From Acidicapsa ligni (GTDB lineage Bacteria > Acidobacteriota > Terriglobia > Terriglobales > Acidobacteriaceae), in the NCBI RefSeq assembly GCF_025685655.1, contig NZ_JAGSYG010000001.1:558001-622000 (forward strand): DNA of 64,000 nucleotides. The letters run 5' to 3'. Position 1 is the stretch's first letter. Every line of letters begins with the position of its first letter. Positions 22,441 through 31,710 of this stretch are shown one piece after another. The notes beneath the pieces were generated by a model. It was given only the letters and a program-made list of their open reading frames with translations, was not told the DNA's origin and made no database searches. The position numbers were made by a program, and so were the translations under genes.

Positions 22441-22593
22441 AGCGGCCTGGCTGGGAGTGGGGACTACGTTCTGAAGTTCGATACTTTGTGCGGACTTACT
22501 TGCTGCCTATCTTGCTTATGGATTCCGCTGGGTTGGTTGAAGCAACTAAGATAAAGATGGGTCTGATCTCTCCTACAGAAAGCATTGAATTCT

Positions 22594-22971
22594 ATGTATG
22601 AAGTAACGGTGGATGCGGGTTTTTCTTCGGGGCATTATCTACGGAATTATCGCGGGAAGTGCGAGAATCCGCATGGGCATAACTACAAGGTGCGTGTGAC
22701 GCTGATTGGGCAGGAGCTGGATGCAACGGGGCTGCTGTTGGATTTCAAGCTGTTGAAGCAGGTGTTGCGGCCGGTGATTGACCGGATCGATCACCAGATG
22801 TTGAACGACCTGGAGCCGTTTATCGAGCTGAATCCTTCAGCGGAGAATCTGGCGCGGTACTTTTACGATGAAACTCGCAGCCAGTTGCATGAGATGACGG
22901 GTGGGCGGGTTCGCGTGAAGGATTGCACGATCTGGGAGACGGATACGACTACGGCTACTTATTTCGAGTAG
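22594..22971 (+). CDS. queD: 6-carboxy-5,6,7,8-tetrahydropterin synthase QueD
   Basis: QueD converts dihydroneopterin triphosphate to carboxytetrahydropterin, the first committed step towards queuosine. The 125-residue product has the zinc site H14, H27 and H29 ('FSSGHYL', 'CENPHGHNY') with the catalytic C23 between. Family motifs 'LLLDFKLLKQVL', 'DRIDHQMLND', 'NPSAENLARYFYDE' and C-terminal 'VKDCTIWETDTTTATYFE' are complete. ATG at 22594 is used; a TTG three codons earlier is possible. No preQ1 riboswitch was recognised in the ~150 bp upstream. Confidence 0.94.
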   Translation: MYEVTVDAGFSSGHYLRNYRGKCENPHGHNYKVRVTLIGQELDATGLLLDFKLLKQVLRPVIDRIDHQMLNDLEPFIELNPSAENLARYFYDETRSQLHEMTGGRVRVKDCTIWETDTTTATYFE

Positions 22972-23112: not shown

Positions 23113-24969
23113 CTACGGTTGTTTGGCTATGGCGAGCATCTTGCGCATGAAGTCGTCCTGCGGGAAATCTTCTAAATACTTTTCCATTTGCGCCTGGGCT
23201 TCTTCGTATTGCCTGGCGTTGATCAGGCGCAGAACCAGAGCCTTGCGCGGAGTGGCGTTGAAGGGATCGAGGGCTACGGCTTTTCTGGCGAGCGAGACGG
23301 CTTCTTCGGGTTGGTTTTTCTGGTCGGATATGTCGGATAAATCGGCGTAGACGGCAGGCTGGGCGGGGTCGAGTTGCAGGGACCGCTGCAGGTGTTCGCT
23401 GGCCTGGTCGAGCTTGCCGCCCTGTAGATCCTGATGGCCGAGCGAGGCTTGAACGATGGCGTTTTCCGGGGCCGTTTTTTCGAGTGCGCGCAGGGTTCGG
23501 AGCCAGGATGCGGCGTATTCGGGCTTTTGATCTTTGAGCTGATCGTAGGCCTGCAGGAGCGTGATCGCGGGTGGTGGAGCGGTGTTGCCCGGAGAGTGAT
23601 TGAGATAAATTACATCGGGCAGGGCGGCGGTTGTCTGCTCAAAGACGGCGTCTGGGTAGGGCTCGTCGATGGTGGTGACGATGCGGTGGTTGGTGATGCT
23701 GCTATGGCTGAGCGCGGGGTTTTCGTGCTGGGGCATGTGGCAGCCGATGCAGTTGTCTGCCGCGGTGGTGGCTTGTCGCGCGGCCTTTGGCGCTTTGCAG
23801 CTTTGCTCGGTGTGGCAGCTCAGGCATTTGCCGTTGAAGAAGGCTGGAGCCTCTTCTTTGGCGGGCTCGATGTGGGGATCATGGCAGGTGATGCAGCGCA
23901 TTTGCTGTGCCTGCGGCTTGGTGATGCTGGCGCGGTAGCACTTGCTCATGATCATGGAGTAGTAGTGCTGGGCGTGGTCGGGGCTGGGCGGATCCTGGCG
24001 TGTGGGCGGAATCATGAGGATGGCCATGATGCGGTCGAGCGGTTGACCGGGCCGGAAATCCTGATAGGTTTTGCCGGACTGGAAAACACGTGCATCCCCG
24101 GTCTGATGGCAGGACATGCAGATGTCGTCTGACAGAGCGGTGGCGAGGTGTGCAGGGTTCACGATTGTCGGGTCTTTGCCTTTTTCGTAGGAGTCTCCCT
24201 GGCCCATGGCTTCGACGTGTGCGGCTCCGGGGCCGTGGCAGTTTTCGCAGCCGATTGCGGTCTGGGTAAATGGTGGAGATTGGTATTTGCCCATGGATTG
24301 CGGGATGGGCTGAGAGCGGCCTGCGTGGCAGAAGATGCAGCCGGGGGCGATCAGCCGGCTGAAGCCGTAGTCCCCTTGCTGATAACCGGGCGAAAGGTTC
24401 CAGAGTCTGGTGCGCGGGTAGTAGGAGAGCGGCGCCTGGAAGAGATATCCGTCGTGGGTGATGAGGCCGCCGAGGCCGTTGGTGTTGGTGCCGATGATCC
24501 ACTCGATGGAGTGGGTGTTGCGAAAGACTTCCTTACCTGCGTCGGGACCGGTGGTCTGGAGCTGGTATTCGCTTTGATAGAGCTTGCCGTCTTTGGCGAA
24601 GGATTGATACCAGCGGTCGAGGGCCTGGTTATAGACGGGCTGCGAGGTTGGAAGAGTGCGGATGAAATCCGGGGTGACCGGGGTCAGAGAACGGCCCATG
24701 GTGGTGTGGGTGAAGTGGTTGTAAATCTCGGCATGGCAGCGGGAGCAGGCGAGCGCGCCGACATAGCCATCCGATTTGGCAGGCGTGCTTTTGTCTGGTG
24801 TGCTTTGCGCGGTGGCTTGTGGGGCGGGAAACAGCGCTGCGATTGCTGCGAGGACGAGCATTCTGATTGCCAGTACGCGCACTCTGGCGGCCAGCCCGCG
24901 GCGGGTTGTGGGTGTCGAGAAGAGGCATTTTCTGACAGGCGCAAGGCGGGCGGCGAGGGCTGAGTTCAT
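23113..24969 (-). CDS. Seven-heme cytochrome c with C-terminal TPR domain (copy 1)
   Basis: A 618-residue exported protein with a signal-anchor-like segment ('IRMLVLAAIAALFPAP'). Seven CxxCH heme sites start at residues 75, 211, 241, 284, 359, 382 and 407 (CSRCH, CIFCH, CENCH, CMSCH, CITCH, CLSCH, CIGCH). After 'HMPQHE' comes 'ALSHSSITNHRI', whose histidines may be distal ligands. The C-terminal ~170 residues are TPR helices ('ALEKTAPENAIVQASLGHQDLQGGKLDQASEHLQRSL' in two turns). The heme spacing recalls cytochrome c554 or nitrite-reductase-like multihemes, but the redox partner is unknown. The start is the ATG at 24969; a TTG at 25011 is possible. Copy 2 lies immediately upstream. Confidence 0.85.
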   Translation of the reverse strand: MNSALAARLAPVRKCLFSTPTTRRGLAARVRVLAIRMLVLAAIAALFPAPQATAQSTPDKSTPAKSDGYVGALACSRCHAEIYNHFTHTTMGRSLTPVTPDFIRTLPTSQPVYNQALDRWYQSFAKDGKLYQSEYQLQTTGPDAGKEVFRNTHSIEWIIGTNTNGLGGLITHDGYLFQAPLSYYPRTRLWNLSPGYQQGDYGFSRLIAPGCIFCHAGRSQPIPQSMGKYQSPPFTQTAIGCENCHGPGAAHVEAMGQGDSYEKGKDPTIVNPAHLATALSDDICMSCHQTGDARVFQSGKTYQDFRPGQPLDRIMAILMIPPTRQDPPSPDHAQHYYSMIMSKCYRASITKPQAQQMRCITCHDPHIEPAKEEAPAFFNGKCLSCHTEQSCKAPKAARQATTAADNCIGCHMPQHENPALSHSSITNHRIVTTIDEPYPDAVFEQTTAALPDVIYLNHSPGNTAPPPAITLLQAYDQLKDQKPEYAASWLRTLRALEKTAPENAIVQASLGHQDLQGGKLDQASEHLQRSLQLDPAQPAVYADLSDISDQKNQPEEAVSLARKAVALDPFNATPRKALVLRLINARQYEEAQAQMEKYLEDFPQDDFMRKMLAIAKQP

Positions 24970-25055
24970 AGTGGCTTTGAATGGAATTTCATGGTCGGAT
25001 TTCGTGAGCAATTGGAATAATCATTGAAAAAATCAGATTAGACGCAGCGGGAAAT

Positions 25056-26825
25056 CTATTCTCTGGCCATGGCGAGCATCTTACGCATGAAGTCGTCTTC
25101 GGGGAAGAGCTGGAGGTACTTCTCCATTGCTGCCTGGGCCTCTTCGTAGTGTTTGCCGTTGATGAGGCGGAAGACGAGAGTCTTTTGCAGGGCGGGTACG
25201 AAGGGATCAAGGAGGATGGCTTTCTTCTGGGCGGCGATGGCTTCTTCGGGCTGATTGGCCTGGTCGTATGCTTCGGAGAGATCGACGCAGGCTTCGGTCT
25301 GGGTGGGGTCGAGTTGCAGGGATTGCTGCAGGTGAGAGATGGCTTGCGGCAGGTTGTGGTCCTGGAGGTCGCGGTGGCCCAGCGCGGCCTGTACTAGCGC
25401 GTTGCGGGTGGTGGTGGTTTCCAGTTCCGAGAGAGTTTTGAGCCAGGATGCGGTGTAGGTGGCGGCGTACTGCGGCTTCTGCTTGAGGATGTCGGCGTAG
25501 GCTTGCAGGCGGGTCAATGCTGAGGCTGTTGCTGAGGGGGGTTGAGCAGAATCGCTGGCTCGATTGAGATGAATCAGGTCGGGCATGGCTGCTGAGGTTT
25601 GCTGGAAGGCTGCGTCTGGAAATGGTTCGTCGGGGCGGGCGAGGATGCGGTGGTTGGTGATGCTGCTGTGAGAGATCACGACGACATCGCGTTTGGGCAT
25701 GTGGCAGCCGATGCAATTGTCCGCGGGGGATGTGGCCTGGCGCACGGCTTTGGGGGCTTTGCAGCTTTGCGCGGTGTGGCAGGTGAGGCATCGGCTGTTG
25801 AAGTATGCGGGGGCCTCGGCGGTGGTTGGTTCAATGTGCGGATCGTGGCAGGTGATGCAGCGCATCCGCTTGTCTTCAGGCTTCGAGAGGCTTGCACGGA
25901 AGCACTTGCTGAGAGACATGGAGTAGTAGTGCTCGACGTGATCGTCCTGGGGGGGATTTTCGCGGGTGGGCGGGATCTGAAAGATGGAGACGGTCTTGTC
26001 CAGAGGCTGGCCGGGGCGGAAGTCCTGGTAGGTTTTGCCGGGTTGCAGGACGCGGGTATCGCCGGTCTGATGGCAGGACATGCAGATGTCGTCGGATAGT
26101 TTCGCGGTGAGGCGGGCGGGGTTGACGATGGTGGGATCTTTACCTTTGGCGTAGGAGTCGCCCTGACCCATGGATTCGACGTGGGCGGAGCCGGGGCCGT
26201 GGCAGTTTTCGCAGCCTACGGATGCCTGGGTGAAGGGCTGAGCCGCATATTGGCCGGGATGGTTGGCTATGGGAACGGGGCGTCCGCTGTGGCAGTAGAG
26301 GCAGCCGGGCAGGAGGATGCGGTTGAAGCTGAGCGCTTCGTTCTGGTAGCCGGGGGAGAGTTGCCAGTGGGCCGCTTTGGAGTAGTAGGAGAGCGGCGCC
26401 TGGAAGAGATAGTCGTCGCGGCGCAGGAGTGCTCCAAAGCCGTTTTCGCCGGTACCGATGATCCATTGGAGTTGGTGGGTGTTACGGAAGAGCTGCTTGC
26501 CGGCTGCGTCGGTTTCGGATTCGGATTGGTAGAGTTTGCCGTTCTCGATCTGAACGGTGAATTGATGACCGGTTTTGGGGTCGGTGAAGCTGGCTGGGGC
26601 CTGGATGGTTTTCAGGTACTCCGGCGTGATCTGGGTGAGGGAGTGGCCCATGCTGGCTTGGGCGAAGTGATTGGCGATTTCGAGGTGGCAGCGGGAGCAG
26701 GCCTGGGTGTCTACGTAGGTTGGGGGTTTCTGGGCCGGTTTCTGAGCAGGTTTCTGGGCTGAGGATGGGATGAGTGCGAGGAGGCTTAGGAGAGCGATGG
26801 TTGCGGATTGGAGGCGGTTGGCCAT
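25056..26825 (-). CDS. Seven-heme cytochrome c with C-terminal TPR domain (copy 2)
   Basis: A 589-residue paralogue of the downstream gene, in the same order and strand. It has a signal peptide ('MANRLQSATIALLSLLALIPSSA') followed by a short repeat, QKPAQKPAQKP. The seven CxxCH motifs occur in the same sequence as copy 1: CSRCH, CLYCH, CENCH, CMSCH, CITCH, CLTCH, CIGCH. Long stretches between hemes 3 and 7 are near-identical, for example 'CHGPGSAHVESMGQGDSYAKGKDPTIVNPA' and 'TYQDFRPGQPLD'. TPR helices fill the C-terminus. The 86-bp gap to copy 1 suggests co-transcription after tandem duplication. A periplasmic electron-transfer or multiheme reductase role is inferred. Confidence 0.86.
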   Translation of the reverse strand: MANRLQSATIALLSLLALIPSSAQKPAQKPAQKPPTYVDTQACSRCHLEIANHFAQASMGHSLTQITPEYLKTIQAPASFTDPKTGHQFTVQIENGKLYQSESETDAAGKQLFRNTHQLQWIIGTGENGFGALLRRDDYLFQAPLSYYSKAAHWQLSPGYQNEALSFNRILLPGCLYCHSGRPVPIANHPGQYAAQPFTQASVGCENCHGPGSAHVESMGQGDSYAKGKDPTIVNPARLTAKLSDDICMSCHQTGDTRVLQPGKTYQDFRPGQPLDKTVSIFQIPPTRENPPQDDHVEHYYSMSLSKCFRASLSKPEDKRMRCITCHDPHIEPTTAEAPAYFNSRCLTCHTAQSCKAPKAVRQATSPADNCIGCHMPKRDVVVISHSSITNHRILARPDEPFPDAAFQQTSAAMPDLIHLNRASDSAQPPSATASALTRLQAYADILKQKPQYAATYTASWLKTLSELETTTTRNALVQAALGHRDLQDHNLPQAISHLQQSLQLDPTQTEACVDLSEAYDQANQPEEAIAAQKKAILLDPFVPALQKTLVFRLINGKHYEEAQAAMEKYLQLFPEDDFMRKMLAMARE

Positions 26826-26893: not shown

Positions 26894-27052
26894 GGAGATT
26901 TTCTTTGGGAATGACAGATGCAAAGGCAAAGGTAACGGCAGAGGCTAAATGCTAACAGCAAATTCCCTGCGGGAATGACAGACAGAACTGCAAGTGCAAA
27001 GGCAAGTGCAAAGGCAAGTGCAACTGCAAGGGCAAAGGCAACTGCGATGGCT
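26894..27052 (+). repeat. Composite intergenic repeat, locus F (one diverged and one normal core)
   Basis: The first core (26894-26923) is diverged: its left arm is ATTTTC against GGGAAT, still able to pair with G-T wobbles. The second (26958-26987) has the TGC loop and begins GCAAATTCCC. The tail after it is strictly hexameric, alternating GCAAGT and GCAAAG units (about 60 bp). Both flanking genes are on the minus strand, yet the repeat points right. Confidence 0.88.
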
Positions 27053-27074: not shown

Positions 27075-27830
27075 CTACTTCATTCCGTCGAGGATGCTGC
27101 CTACTATGCCACCCATGACTCCGCCTTGCACTGTTTCTCGTTCGCCGGAGGGTAGGTAGGGGGCTAGTGCATGGGCCAGGCGCGGCAGGGGCAGGGATTG
27201 CAGCCAGACTCGGCCGGGGCCGGTCAGGGCGGCGAGGAAGAGGCCGTCGCCGCCGAAGATCATGTTCTTGATGCCGGGGACGCGGGTGATCTGGAAGGAG
27301 ACGCTGCTTTGAAATGCTCCGACGTGGCCGGGGTGGACGCGGAGGGTTTCGCCGGGGGCGAGATCTTTGGTGATGACTTCGCCGGAGAGTTCGAGCCAGG
27401 CGGTGCCTACGCCACTGACTTTCTGGAGCAGGAAGCCGTCTCCGCCGAAGATACCTGCGCCGAGAGATTGCTGGAAGCCGACGCCTAGCTGGATCTGCGG
27501 GGTGGCGCATAGGAAGCCGTGGCGATGGATGAGGTAATCGTGGCCGGGCTGCACTTCAACGGGCAGGATGTGGCCGGGGACTTTGGCGGCGAAGGCGATT
27601 TCGCCGGGTGCTCCCCAGGCGCGGTACTCGGTCATGAAGAGGCTGCCGCCGCCTGCGACGCGCTTGAGGGCGCCGAAGAAGCCTCCGCCGCCGGCCATCT
27701 GGGTGTGGGTGGTCATCTGGATGGAGCTGGTCATCCAGGAGAGCTCGCCTGCCTCGGAGATGATGGTGTCGTTGGGTTGGAGGAGAAATTCCAGGACGGG
27801 CATGGTGGTGCCGAGGATGCGGGATTGCAT
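27075..27830 (-). CDS. AIM24/TIGR00266-family protein
   Basis: A 251-residue beta-rich protein of the AIM24 family. Family features are 'MPVLEFLLQPNDTIISEAGELSWM', the glycine-rich 'AGGGGFFGALKRVAGGGSLFM' loop, 'GFQQSLGAGIFGGDGFLLQKVSG' and 'FQITRVPGIKNMIFGGDGLFLAALTGPGRVWLQSL' (the last two broken here by turns). Bacterial members have no proven biochemical role; the yeast relative acts at the inner mitochondrial membrane. There is no signal peptide. ATG at 27830 has GGAG upstream; a longer frame to 27875 is less likely. Composite repeats lie on both sides. Confidence 0.88.
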   Translation of the reverse strand: MQSRILGTTMPVLEFLLQPNDTIISEAGELSWMTSSIQMTTHTQMAGGGGFFGALKRVAGGGSLFMTEYRAWGAPGEIAFAAKVPGHILPVEVQPGHDYLIHRHGFLCATPQIQLGVGFQQSLGAGIFGGDGFLLQKVSGVGTAWLELSGEVITKDLAPGETLRVHPGHVGAFQSSVSFQITRVPGIKNMIFGGDGLFLAALTGPGRVWLQSLPLPRLAHALAPYLPSGERETVQGGVMGGIVGSILDGMK

Positions 27831-27939
27831 GGGTAACTCCTGACCCGGACGGGCGTATTCAGGGGAAGTATACATCTGGGCTGTTTGGGATTGGGTGGGA
27901 TTTGCTTTGGGAGGGAGGGTCGGGATGGCTTGGGGTACG

Positions 27940-28024
27940 GCAGGTTTCCTTCGGGAATGACAGACAGAAGGGCAAGGGCAACTACAACGGCAAAAGCAAG
28001 GGCAACGGCGAGGGCTAGGGCAAC
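27940..28024 (+). repeat. Composite intergenic repeat, locus G (single copy)
   Basis: The core is at 27940-27969 with left arm GTTTCC, still pairing with GGGAAT through wobble pairs, and a TTC loop. The tail is about 55 bp of GCAA hexamers, including a GGCTAGGGCAACTGG end. It lies upstream of the AIM24 gene and downstream of tricorn, both on the minus strand. Confidence 0.87.
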
Positions 28025-28035
28025 TGGTTTTTTCT

Positions 28036-28091: not shown

Positions 28092-31000
28092 TTACTTTTG
28101 GGATTTGAAGGACTTGTCTGGGTAGGGTGGGGGGTTGGGAACTGGGCGCGGGTCTTGCTGGATCTCTTGTTTGAGCAGGTCCAGGGCGGATTGCAGTTGG
28201 GCGTCGGAGCCGGTGAAGCCGGCGTGGGGCAGATTTTCGACGGTTATGTCGGGTTCGACGCCGCGGCCCTCGATCAGCCACTTCCCTTCCGGGCCGTAGA
28301 CGCCGATTTCGGGTGCCGTGGCGATGCCGTTGTCGGCCTGCTGGTTATCGAAACCGAGCCAGACTTCGCCGCCCCAGGTGCGGGTGCCGATAACCTTGCC
28401 GAGTTTCAGGCGCTTGATGCCTTCGGTGAAGGCTTCGCCGTCTGAACCGGTATTCTCGTCGCAAAGCACGACAATATGTCCGCGGAAGGCACCTTGCATG
28501 TTCCACGACGGTGCACCAACGCGCGGCTGCCAGTACATCCAGGCCTGACGGAGGAGCTTGCCGAGGAGCCATGAATCAATGTTTCCGCCGCCGTTGTGAC
28601 GGACGTCGATGATGAGGCCCTGGCGGTTGAATATGGGGTAGTAGTCGCGAGCCCACTGGTCAATGTCTCCCGAACCCATGGCGCGGAGATGGACGTAACC
28701 GATTTGCTCGTTGGAGCTTTTTTCGACCTCGATGCGACGGGAATACTCCCACTCGCTGTAGCGCAGGTTAGACTCCTGGCCGGTAGAGATGGGGGTGACG
28801 AGGAGTTGCCGTTCGGTGCCTGTGGCTGACTTGACGCCGAGAAGCACGGGTGAGCCCGCTTTGCCGCGGAGCAGTACGCGCTCGTCGGGCACGGAGAGCG
28901 TGGGCTGGCCATTGATGGAGACAATGATTTCTCCGTCGGCTACGTGCGAATCGGGGCGGGCGAAGGGTGGCGCTTCGTTGGGAAGGTCTGGATCGTGGAG
29001 ATAGACGTGCTCGACAACGTAGCCGCCTGCTTTTTCATCGCGACGTAGCTGCGCGCCGAAACCGGCGAGATCGATATCGTCCTCGGGCTGGCGCTGGTCG
29101 CCGCCGAAGACGAAGGTGTGCAGTACGGAGAGTTCGCCGACCATCTGGTCGATGACGTTGTTGAGTTCGTCCCGGTTTGAGACGCGATCGACGAGCGGCA
29201 GGTAGCGGTCACGCATTGCGGGCCAGTCGACACCGTGCATGTGGCGATCGTAGAAGTAGTCGCGGTGCATACGCCAGGCGTCGAGAAAGAGGCCGCGGAA
29301 TTCCTGGCGGGTGTCTGTGGAGAAGCTCCAGCGTGCGAAGTTGATGGCAGCTTTGCCCATCATCTTGGAGTCGCTGGTGGATTTTGTGTCGGAGTCCAAG
29401 ATATAGAACTCCTGATCCTTTTGCACCAGCATTTTTTTGTGGTCGGCGGAGATTTCATAGCCGCCAACGCCGCTCATGACGGTGTCGGGCTCATCGCCTT
29501 TATTGGCGATGTCGAGGCACTCAAGGGAGGACTTGTCTGGAGCTCCTTCGGGTATGTCGAGCCAGCAGAGACGCTTCTCAGCGGTCTGGAGAGAGTTGTA
29601 GTTGCCGGCGGGCACGGGGACTTCGCTGAGGCGCGAGGCTAAGTCGGTGAAGTCGATCTTGACCTCTGCGGGCTTCTTTTTATCGTCGGCGGAGTCTTTG
29701 TCTTTATCCGCCTTATCCTTGTCCGCTTTTTCGGCGTCTTTCTTTGCGGCATCAGTGGATTTGCCGTCGGTTTTCTTTGCGTCTTCGGCTTTCTTTTCTT
29801 CCTTCTTCTCTTCTTTTTTGTCTTCTTCTTTCTTTTCTGCGTCCTCGGGGTGCAGCTCGTCATAGGGCAGGAAGGGTGAGCGCAAGCCGGTGTTCAAAGC
29901 CAGTTGATAGATTTTGACGGTGTGGTCGAAATGCGGATCGGGCTGACGCGCTCCCCACGGCGAGGGAACGGTTGTCTTGAGCGAGCGATCGGAGAGGTAG
30001 TAGAGCCATTTGCCGTCGGGCGTCCAGGTCGGATTGCCACTGTTGTAGCGATCGGAGGTAACGGCCTGGATGGCTCCGGTCTCGACGTTGAGGATTTTGA
30101 TCTGCTGAAACTGGTTGGCAGCGGTTTCTCCATAGGACAGCCAGCGGCTGTCGGGAGACCAGGAGAGATCGCCGAAGTCGCCGTACATGGATTGACCGAT
30201 GCGCTTTTCGGTCTTGTTTTTGATGTCGTAGATCCAAAGCTGCTGGTCGCGGTCGTGGTGGGCGAGCCATTTGCCGTCGGGCGACGGAACACCTTCGGTG
30301 CGCTGGACCTTGGAATCATTGGTCCATTGCTCGGCTTTGCCGATGCCGTTGGCTGGATACTGCCAGAATTCGGTTTCGCCGCTCTCGGTGGAGATGGCGA
30401 GGATGCTTTTGCCGTCGGGAAGGAAGCGCGCATCGCGATAGCGTACGGCGGAGCCGTCTGCGATCTTGATGGTGCGGCCGGTTTTGGCGGCGGGCAGGGT
30501 GAAGACCTCACCCCGAGCTGTGAAGACTGCACTCGATCCATCGGGCGAGATATGGAAGCCGGTGAGGTAGTCGAGCGGCTTTTTGGTCCAGTGCTCGCGA
30601 AGCTGGTCGTAGTCGGAGCTGATCCGGATGGGGACGATCTCTTCGTGGCTGGTCTTGAGGTCGAGGAGCCAGATGTCGGCACCGCTCGAATAAGCGACGC
30701 GGCCATCGGAGATGGAGGCGGTCTGGACGTCGAAGATCTTCTGGTGGCTTTCCTGCTTGAGTTCTTTGCCCTCGGGGTTCATCGACCATACGTTCATGAT
30801 GCCGTCGCGGTCGGAGAGGAAGTAGACGCGGCCATTCCAGAACATGGGGTTGTGCGAGGTGCCTTCGTAGTCCGCAGTGAGAGGAGTGGCTTCGCCCTGG
30901 CCGTTGAAGCGCCACAGGTTCTCAGCAGTACCGCCTTTGTAGCGCTTGGTCGAGCTGGACTGCTTGTTCCAGCGGGTGAAGAAAAGCGTGTGGCCGTCAG

Positions 31001-31541
31001 ACGAATAGGCTCCTTCGGCGGCGGTGGAGAGAGGAAGAATCTCGATCTGGCCTTTGTTGCCGATGAGAACAATCTTCGAGCCGGGCAGAGTGGAGTAGCG
31101 TCCTGTGCCGACGATGAGACGGCCGTCGGGCGTCCAGCCCTGGGGGTGGGCATCGCCGTCCCAGGTGCGCCGCTCGGGGACGCCGCCGTTGAGCGGCATG
31201 GTGTAGACCTCGCGCGGGCCTTCGTATTGGGCGGCAAAGGCGAGAGTCTGGCCGTCGGGCGAGATGGCGGGCATGGATTCGAGGCCGCTGTTGGAGGTAA
31301 GGCGTCGGGCAAGGCCTCCCTGGACGGGGACGGACCAAAGATCGCCTTCCGATCCGAAAACGATTGTGTCGCCGTGAATGGCTGGGGAACGATAGTAGCC
31401 GGGCTGTGTTTTCGACGAATTGGACGGGGTATGCGGCGAGTTGTCAGGAGAGCCATTGGTGGCGGCGAATGCAGAAGCGATGCTTATAAGGCCAAGTGCG
31501 ATGGCCGGGGCGGCATGGCGGAGAGCTTTTGAGGTGAGCAT
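28092..31541 (-). CDS. Tricorn-type protease (beta-propeller, PDZ, S41 serine peptidase)
   Basis: A 1149-residue exported peptidase with a signal peptide ('PAIALGLISIASAFA'). The N-terminal half is WD40-like beta-propeller repeats ('SPDGQTLAFAAQ', 'TPDGRLIVGTG', 'SPDSRWLSYGE'). A C-terminal PDZ region precedes an S41 tail-protease core. Catalytic candidates match tricorn: His in 'YDRHMHGVDWPAMRDRY', the Ser in 'NTGSDGEAFTEG' and Glu in 'IEGRGVEPD'. An unusual Lys/Asp/Glu-rich insert of about 65 residues (roughly residues 564-630) sits between the propeller and the catalytic part. The family degrades peptides after larger proteases. ATG at 31541 starts the signal peptide. Confidence 0.92.
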   Translation of the reverse strand: MLTSKALRHAAPAIALGLISIASAFAATNGSPDNSPHTPSNSSKTQPGYYRSPAIHGDTIVFGSEGDLWSVPVQGGLARRLTSNSGLESMPAISPDGQTLAFAAQYEGPREVYTMPLNGGVPERRTWDGDAHPQGWTPDGRLIVGTGRYSTLPGSKIVLIGNKGQIEILPLSTAAEGAYSSDGHTLFFTRWNKQSSSTKRYKGGTAENLWRFNGQGEATPLTADYEGTSHNPMFWNGRVYFLSDRDGIMNVWSMNPEGKELKQESHQKIFDVQTASISDGRVAYSSGADIWLLDLKTSHEEIVPIRISSDYDQLREHWTKKPLDYLTGFHISPDGSSAVFTARGEVFTLPAAKTGRTIKIADGSAVRYRDARFLPDGKSILAISTESGETEFWQYPANGIGKAEQWTNDSKVQRTEGVPSPDGKWLAHHDRDQQLWIYDIKNKTEKRIGQSMYGDFGDLSWSPDSRWLSYGETAANQFQQIKILNVETGAIQAVTSDRYNSGNPTWTPDGKWLYYLSDRSLKTTVPSPWGARQPDPHFDHTVKIYQLALNTGLRSPFLPYDELHPEDAEKKEEDKKEEKKEEKKAEDAKKTDGKSTDAAKKDAEKADKDKADKDKDSADDKKKPAEVKIDFTDLASRLSEVPVPAGNYNSLQTAEKRLCWLDIPEGAPDKSSLECLDIANKGDEPDTVMSGVGGYEISADHKKMLVQKDQEFYILDSDTKSTSDSKMMGKAAINFARWSFSTDTRQEFRGLFLDAWRMHRDYFYDRHMHGVDWPAMRDRYLPLVDRVSNRDELNNVIDQMVGELSVLHTFVFGGDQRQPEDDIDLAGFGAQLRRDEKAGGYVVEHVYLHDPDLPNEAPPFARPDSHVADGEIIVSINGQPTLSVPDERVLLRGKAGSPVLLGVKSATGTERQLLVTPISTGQESNLRYSEWEYSRRIEVEKSSNEQIGYVHLRAMGSGDIDQWARDYYPIFNRQGLIIDVRHNGGGNIDSWLLGKLLRQAWMYWQPRVGAPSWNMQGAFRGHIVVLCDENTGSDGEAFTEGIKRLKLGKVIGTRTWGGEVWLGFDNQQADNGIATAPEIGVYGPEGKWLIEGRGVEPDITVENLPHAGFTGSDAQLQSALDLLKQEIQQDPRPVPNPPPYPDKSFKSQK

Positions 31542-31710
31542 AGGTAAGGGGTAGCTCCAATTCAGTCGAGTCAGTATTTTTCGGGTGCTGCGGGCGCAGG
31601 AATATTCGAAAACATAAGGGGTCGAGCCCCTGGCCACGAATGCACAGGCATAGCTTCGTTCTTGAGAGGAAGGATAGCACTCCGGTTGGCTTGCCCCGGA
31701 TTGAAATTCG

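Follow-up and report, generated by a model that had tools for sequence, protein, structure and literature searches.

Acidobacteriota are abundant in soils and, to our knowledge, the functions of their multiheme cytochromes are mostly unknown. A stretch of 64,000 nucleotides from Acidicapsa ligni (positions 558,001 to 622,000 of contig NZ_JAGSYG010000001.1; hereafter the window) bears on this question, as it encodes side by side two proteins, A and B, that each combine seven CxxCH heme-binding motifs with C-terminal tetratricopeptide repeats (TPRs). What might such proteins do, and why are there two? With somewhat better than even confidence, we read A and B as long-diverged paralogues, each a periplasmic heptaheme electron-transfer or reductase module that would be docked through its TPRs to an outer-membrane-associated partner. 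The superfamily to which modelling assigns their heme domains, that of OcwA and MccA, is known; what is apparently uncharacterised is a seven-heme, TPR-armed branch of it with an invariant cysteine outside the heme motifs.

Gene A (window positions 25056-26825, minus strand; 589 amino acids) and gene B (23113-25011, minus strand; 632 amino acids from a TTG start) lie head to tail, A then B, with 44 bp between the called open reading frames (ORFs), though B may in fact begin at the ATG at 24969 (its residue 15) and not at the called TTG. Each protein has exactly seven CxxCH motifs in the same order—at residues 43, 175, 205, 248, 323, 346, and 371 of A and 89, 225, 255, 298, 373, 396, and 421 of B—compared with a maximum of one in 2000 shuffles of A. 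Both exceed the Pfam gathering scores of Cytochrome_C554 (25.2 for A and 29.2 for B; cut-off 20.8) and Paired_CXXCH_1 (29.1 and 28.6; cut-off 20.6), and the C-terminal TPRs of both lie above the curated Pfam cut-off. In A, the heme domain (residues 33-412; positions 25590-26729, minus strand) is followed by a linker and TPR domain (residues 431-589; 25059-25535, minus strand; TPR_2, TPR_8, and TPR_19), the modelled helices of which span residues 436-588 and align with designed TPRs at a VIA-align Z of 17.9. The corresponding parts of B are a heme domain at 23626-24777 (minus strand), placed by column transfer from the alignment with that of A, and a linker and TPR domain at 23116-23586 (minus strand; TPR_2, TPR_14, and TPR_19). 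Judged by eye, both N-termini are hydrophobic and signal-peptide-like, without a lipobox, and each protein would be exported to the periplasm. ORFs, motif positions, and Pfam matches thus bear out the initial annotation, made from the letters alone, of two neighbouring genes whose products share the order of their seven CxxCH motifs and end in TPRs. Its statement that no terminal reductase is adjacent also holds for heme proteins, in that no other window ORF of at least 100 codons has two or more CxxCH motifs.

To place the heme domain among known cytochromes, we relied on structure prediction and profile comparison. Among the matches listed, a fold search with the model of whole A (predicted local distance difference test score, pLDDT, 85.9; predicted template modelling score, pTM, 0.84) yielded TPR proteins only, and we therefore folded the heme domain alone (residues 33-412, AlphaFold2; mean pLDDT 89.8, pTM 0.87). 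This model matched OcwA (6i5b; Foldseek E 1.8e-8; VIA-align Z 16.4, 3.6 Å, 293 residues aligned), 6qvm, which we take to be OmhA (Z 12.5, 4.1 Å, 264 residues), and MccA (Z 9.3 and 9.0, 4.2 Å, 269 residues), the next unrelated VIA-align row having a Z of 5.2; NrfA, HAO, and MtrA were absent among the VIA-align matches listed, which excludes none of them. A profile of the family recovered a similar set from the PDB, with a shared motif order: OcwA at 5.8e-19, chain A of 6r2q (labelled otherwise in the search file, but presumably MtrA) at 1.1e-14, 6qvm at 1.7e-9, cytochrome c554 at 2.3e-9, and MccA at 8e-6, all scores to which the shared CxxCH motifs contribute. The model also has strands at its residues 31-124, between the motifs at 11 and 143 (hemes 1 and 2), which fit the beta-sheet domain described in excerpts of PMC6703420 as common to MccA and OcwA. 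On this modelling, the family heme domain is an OcwA/MccA-type core in which TPRs replace the three-helix bundle of OcwA. Structure prediction, which the initial annotation had proposed for heme packing and distal ligands, delivered the fold.

Orthology to a single characterised enzyme, which would have spoken against that annotation, was absent: the PDB relatives are remote, and no NCBIfam cytochrome family scored over its cut-off in A or B. The decaheme models came out at 62.1 (A) and 54.4 bits (B) for NF041028 (GSU2203; curated cut-off 325) and at 48.4 and 45.5 bits for TIGR03508 (DmsE; curated cut-off 192.2). An Mtr-type porin conduit was considered and set aside, as PF11854 (MtrB/PioB) had no match in the genome at E<=0.001, a search without a positive control since the profile exceeded its cut-off in 0/14 control genomes. 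A single NapC/NirT gene lies on another contig of the genome.

The fold frames the question of whether these proteins pass electrons on or use them. The excerpted text of PMC6703420 describes the OcwA/MccA lineage as reductases with open hemes; in OcwA, hemes 2 and 5 are open, and heme 2 is the active site in c554, MccA, and OcwA alike. We infer that OcwA hemes 1-4 and 6-8 have counterparts in the family and hemes 5 and 9 have none, because the CxxCHMP motif belongs to heme 8 in OcwA but to heme 7 in the family (CIGCHMP in A); in the HMMER and MAFFT alignments, family heme 5 falls on OcwA heme 5 instead, which unsettles the proposed absence of hemes 5 and 9. Heme 2 of A and B would probably keep its open coordination site, and the proteins might be enzymes and not wires: MccA-like reductases or oxidases whose substrate is a small sulfur or nitrogen compound and whose active site is the open heme 2, a TsdA-like His/Cys heme, or both. 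The fold common to OcwA and MccA is consistent with this, as are the reported activities of OcwA, which reduces nitrite and turns over hydroxylamine and is inactive on sulfite (PMC6703420, excerpts), and the axial cysteine of TsdA, stated in the part of PMC5146829 consulted to be indispensable for efficient function, set beside the invariant Cys308 of A discussed below. We nevertheless consider an enzymatic role of this kind rather unlikely: no sulfur or nitrogen enzyme occurs among the 25 commonest Pfam families listed for 96 neighbours of family members, and a motif scan found neither the CX15CH motif of MccA nor the CXXCK motif of NrfA in A or B. The initial suggestion of a periplasmic electron conduit or enzyme agrees with the OcwA/MccA-like heme domain, its periplasmic element being itself a prediction.

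Conservation within the family hints at unusual heme ligands. Across 48 rows, the residues invariant outside the heme motifs are G124, G210, H215, S306, C308, H330, H392, I394, and the start Met (numbering of A), and, from the sequences, positions 59, 215, 308, 330, and 392 look like distal ligands. Position 59 is Met in 27/29 close rows and His in 2/29, and Met in 39/46 and His in 7/46 of a wider set (the two sets share at least two proteins); profile alignments place a His of OcwA, c554, and MccA there. A c554-like multiheme gene elsewhere in the genome (L006) also has Met at this position, which is thus not unique to the family. The checked codons of Met59 and Cys308 in A lie at 26649-26651 and 25902-25904, and the A-B alignment places their counterparts in B, Met105 and Cys358, at 24697-24699 and 23938-23940 (all minus strand). 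Cys308, part of an invariant S-x-Cys, is kept in 29/29, 46/46, and 48/48 rows. MAFFT sets it on the His of the OcwA T-G-H in 3/3 modes; hhalign puts it two residues off that His and in line with a Met of L006. Because a lone invariant cysteine stands at or near a distal-ligand position, the conservation pattern suggests a His/Cys heme. There are precedents in other cytochromes: besides TsdA, SoxA is called cysteine-ligated in a title in the reference list of PMC5146829. Were Cys308 to ligate heme, this would be a ligand type unmentioned for the superfamily in the excerpted texts of PMC6703420 and PMC6976685. As a separate observation, L006 (G000:C6:11966-12553 region) contains an in-frame TGA and has S-x-M where the family has S-x-C.

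Cys308 may also have a role away from the heme iron. MccA/SirA has a heme-copper site with two cysteines, and a title in a reference list calls MccA a haem c-copper enzyme; by analogy, Cys308 could be structural, or bind copper or another thiol partner, with the protein acting as a plain electron carrier. A second non-heme cysteine, Cys355, occurs in 27/29 close rows and at that column in 22/46 of the wider set, members in which the two cysteines could form a disulfide or a metal pair, and the hhalign offset from the OcwA His fits this explanation as well. On the other side, 21/46 members have no cysteine after heme 6 and Cys308 is never lost, which argues against an obligate pair. We regard this as an appreciable possibility that falls short of even. 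An obligate Cys308-Cys355 disulfide, in particular, was rejected as a universal feature, given that Cys355 reaches only 22/46 in the wider set while Cys308 is present in all.

Why, then, two genes? Over 600 aligned columns, A and B share 57% identity, unevenly spread: 75.6% (130/172) from heme 3 to heme 7, 48.1% between hemes 1 and 3, and 60.3% in the TPR part. The near-identical stretches first noted between hemes 3 and 7 correspond to identical runs of 9-14 residues, a description that suits these runs and not the segment as a whole. Genome contigs were scanned and yielded 29 loci (by title, 28 from acidobacteria and 1 from a planctomycete), in 8 of which a second copy lies head to tail behind the first. 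In a tree of 40 rows, 11 A-type rows form one clade (support 100/99) and 9 B-type rows another (100/96), the two joining at 99/99; each of the nine loci with both types (these eight and the window) contributes one A and one B, and the nearest rows to A and B are from Acidobacteriota. Excluded from the tree were fragmentary or broken copies (L027, L035, and L037), an eight-heme ORF (L031:9648-11447), two loci that are duplicates (L001 and L002), and weak matches from the same genome (L006-L009); two alignments, A1 and A2, cover 29 of the 40 tree rows. Nonsynonymous divergence between A and B (Ka) is 0.32 and synonymous divergence (Ks) 1.07. We accordingly read the duplication as old and kept under purifying selection; a recent event is ruled out by the tree and by the Ks. 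The tandem duplication proposed at the outset was right, and phylogeny of the two copies, also proposed then, sets it before the divergence of the nine loci.

Functional redundancy of A and B, with both copies surviving by chance, seems to us quite unlikely. The two are alike in motifs and domain order, and A occurs without B in 2/11 A-clade loci (L011 and L025), as redundancy would allow; against it stand the separate, supported clades maintained across nine loci, a Ka/Ks of about 0.3, and the finding that no B-clade row in the 40-row tree lacks an A at its locus.

Related proteins extend well beyond the window. The same genome holds nine matches: A, B, and C3:406127 (55%) are the close ones, and two more, at 30-32%, span most of the heme domain. 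TPR_19 was found in 36/48 family members, which makes the docking function first proposed for the TPRs plausible, any partner being at this stage a candidate. Eight-heme relatives also exist (L031:9648-11447, L104:7535-9349, L105:7468-9282, and L133:472-2775), the one in L031 directly downstream of a seven-heme copy. In the open-access literature searched, we recognised, from titles and the beginnings of abstracts, no work describing a TPR-heptaheme family.

A candidate partner emerges from the neighbourhoods of relatives. We compared 40 family regions (32 genomes) with 40 control regions from the same genome set. CRTAC1/UnbV genes occurred in 13/40 family regions versus 0/40 control regions (Fisher p 8e-5), TPR genes in 19/40 versus 3/40 (p 1e-4), and TonB-type receptors in 18/40 versus 6/40 (p 7e-3), p-values that serve as a guide only, as the family regions were picked by hand among the matches of the taxonomic-family and phylum surveys, mostly on long contigs. 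Counted by genome (32 family, 29 control), the figures are 11 versus 0, 16 versus 3, and 14 versus 6, respectively; leaving aside three regions whose contigs were also a source of profile seeds, they are 12/37, 17/37, and 16/37. All five receptors scanned (5/5) carry OMP_b-brl_4 and CarboxypepD_reg domains. In the genome of the window, a distant family member (L040) adjoins a CRTAC1/UnbV gene, a receptor, and a TPR gene. Separately, at L132 and L133, two or three family members cluster with a pair of CRTAC1 genes, a pair of TPR genes, and a TonB-type receptor over 18-20 kb. In another setting, a CRTAC1-family gene is reported beside homologues of hydrazine synthase subunits (PMC12758564, excerpt).

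These receptors could also be taken to mean that the proteins are redox partners of periplasmic sugar oxidation, with the quinoprotein or 3-keto-glycoside dehydrogenases of TonB-fed glycan loci as their electron donors. Receptor enrichment apart, a Pfam scan of 96 neighbours counted, among the families listed, four alpha-L-fucosidases, three LacI regulators, two PQQ dehydrogenases, and two 3-keto-disaccharide hydrolases, none of which is among the 25 commonest families listed for 96 control proteins; the two sets were picked differently, the neighbours being the 96 of 180 candidates nearest the cytochrome and the controls 96 of 269 at random. The locus of the third copy in the same genome likewise includes an OMP_b-brl_4/CarboxypepD_reg receptor, a TPR protein, a fucosidase, GH38, RhaT, and IclR. 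Yet four fucosidases in 96 would be non-significant even against a control of zero (Fisher p 0.12), with the control known for its top 25 families listed, and the A-B pair has no such neighbours. We therefore judge a role in sugar oxidation unlikely.

Returning to a TPR-docked electron-transfer or reductase module, a number of observations weigh against it and temper our confidence. The context statistics draw on hand-picked regions, several sharing a genome, three shared with the profile seeds, and two (L146 and L150) ending early at contig ends; none of the flanking genes scanned near the A-B pair was a TonB, CRTAC1, or TPR-only gene. Tails are too short for a TPR domain in 10/46 relatives. 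The family was found in 49/150 genomes of the taxonomic family (E<=1e-20) and in 63/297 sampled genomes of the phylum Acidobacteriota (E<=1e-30), and the patchy occurrence within the taxonomic family means that it is accessory. On the structural side, Foldseek scores MccA weakly (E 0.049 and 0.12), the MccA profile match of 8e-6 holds for the whole alone, with no single stretch below E 1, and hhalign displaces Cys308 from the OcwA His, as described above.

Taken as a working mechanism, the module would carry seven c-hemes on its OcwA/MccA-type core, a holoprotein count predicted from the motifs. The open heme would either consume electrons or relay them, with the remaining hemes as points of entry or exit, and the TPR domain would probably dock the protein to its partner. 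In relatives, that partner is probably a TonB-type system of the outer membrane together with CRTAC1/UnbV and TPR proteins. For the A-B pair, at a different locus, the partner would have to act in trans, or A and B may dock to each other. If Met59 and Cys308 both ligate iron, the core would hold a His/Met and a His/Cys heme, ligations that give heme sites of raised and lowered potential, respectively. A more ambitious generalisation, which we advance tentatively and think rather improbable in its full form, is a class of OcwA/MccA-type heptaheme proteins, widespread in the Acidobacteriota, in which an invariant cysteine replaces a distal His, combining His/Cys, His/Met, and open hemes in one core and docked by TPRs to TonB/CRTAC1 systems; were it true, a redox step would be built into nutrient uptake. 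With the family placed on the OcwA/MccA fold, its invariant cysteine named, and a TonB/CRTAC1/TPR context recurrent, what would otherwise be a "hypothetical TPR cytochrome" gains testable hypotheses.

The genes next to the pair tell of its chromosomal site and not of its function. It is flanked by an AIM24-family gene (27075-27875, minus strand; PF01987, E 2.5e-67) and by queD, encoding 6-carboxytetrahydropterin synthase (22585-22971, plus strand; TIGR03367, over cut-off). By clustering of called ORFs, AIM24 is upstream in 7/11 A-clade loci and queD downstream on the opposite strand in 9/11. In two congeners without a family match, the AIM24 and queD matches lie ~100 bp (G131) and ~555 bp (G102) apart, with no convincing cytochrome remnant in either gap (best tblastn E 0.07). 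The flanks are therefore chromosomal backbone outside the system, and the A-B pair is cargo at a variable site; for the same reason, AIM24 and QueD were ruled out as partners of the cytochromes. The gap in G102 carries a TspO gene (PF03073, E 4.5e-50; L194 882-1421), and the site, holding TspO there and cytochromes elsewhere, may be a small insertion hotspot.

Several other features of the surroundings were recorded. A Tricorn-like protease (PD40 propeller, Tricorn_C1, PDZ, and S41) is encoded at 28092-31637, upstream of AIM24. Promoter and terminator scans gave 0 hits versus 1.0 expected and 6 versus 5.1 expected, respectively. A 90-bp intergenic repeat occurs at 26955-27044 and 27937-28026 (copies 79% alike), and its 18-bp core, CGGGAATGACAGACAGAA, has 226 copies in the genome (129 forward and 97 reverse, <=2 mismatches) versus 1 for a reversed control. 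Among the matches listed, core orientation runs in long one-way stretches and then switches (contig 1, minus at 358-431 kb and plus from 459 kb; contig 2, plus to 251 kb and minus from 464 kb), as if it were tied to the direction of replication.

Comparison with known systems shows both shared and differing features. NrfA is marked by a CXXCK catalytic heme, a motif foreign to A and B. The MtrA/DmsE/GSU2203-type cytochromes show local similarity over hemes 2-7 (6r2q_A and NF041028) but are decaheme proteins, compared with seven hemes here, and family scores fall far under their curated cut-offs. Cytochrome c554 (1bvb) shares the first hemes and the CExCHGPG motif with the family, and differs in having four hemes (PMC6703420, excerpt) and a His where the family has Met59. 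The undecaheme S-layer cytochrome of Carboxydothermus ferrireducens (6qvm) is alike in the fold of the overlapping part, with eleven hemes, according to its PDB title, versus seven. MccA/SirA, the octaheme sulfite reductase (4rkm), resembles the family in fold, heme order, beta insert, and the apparent lack of an equivalent of OcwA heme 5; it differs in its eighth heme, bound by a CX15CH-type motif (PMC6976685, excerpt), in lacking a TPR tail, and in the remoteness of its sequence. Finally, OcwA, the nonaheme cell-surface terminal reductase of Thermincola potens (6i5b), is like the family in fold, in motif order including CxxCHMP, and in its beta insert, whereas it has nine hemes and a C-terminal three-helix bundle in place of seven and a TPR domain, and His at two putative ligand positions (one placed by MAFFT) where the family has Met and Cys.

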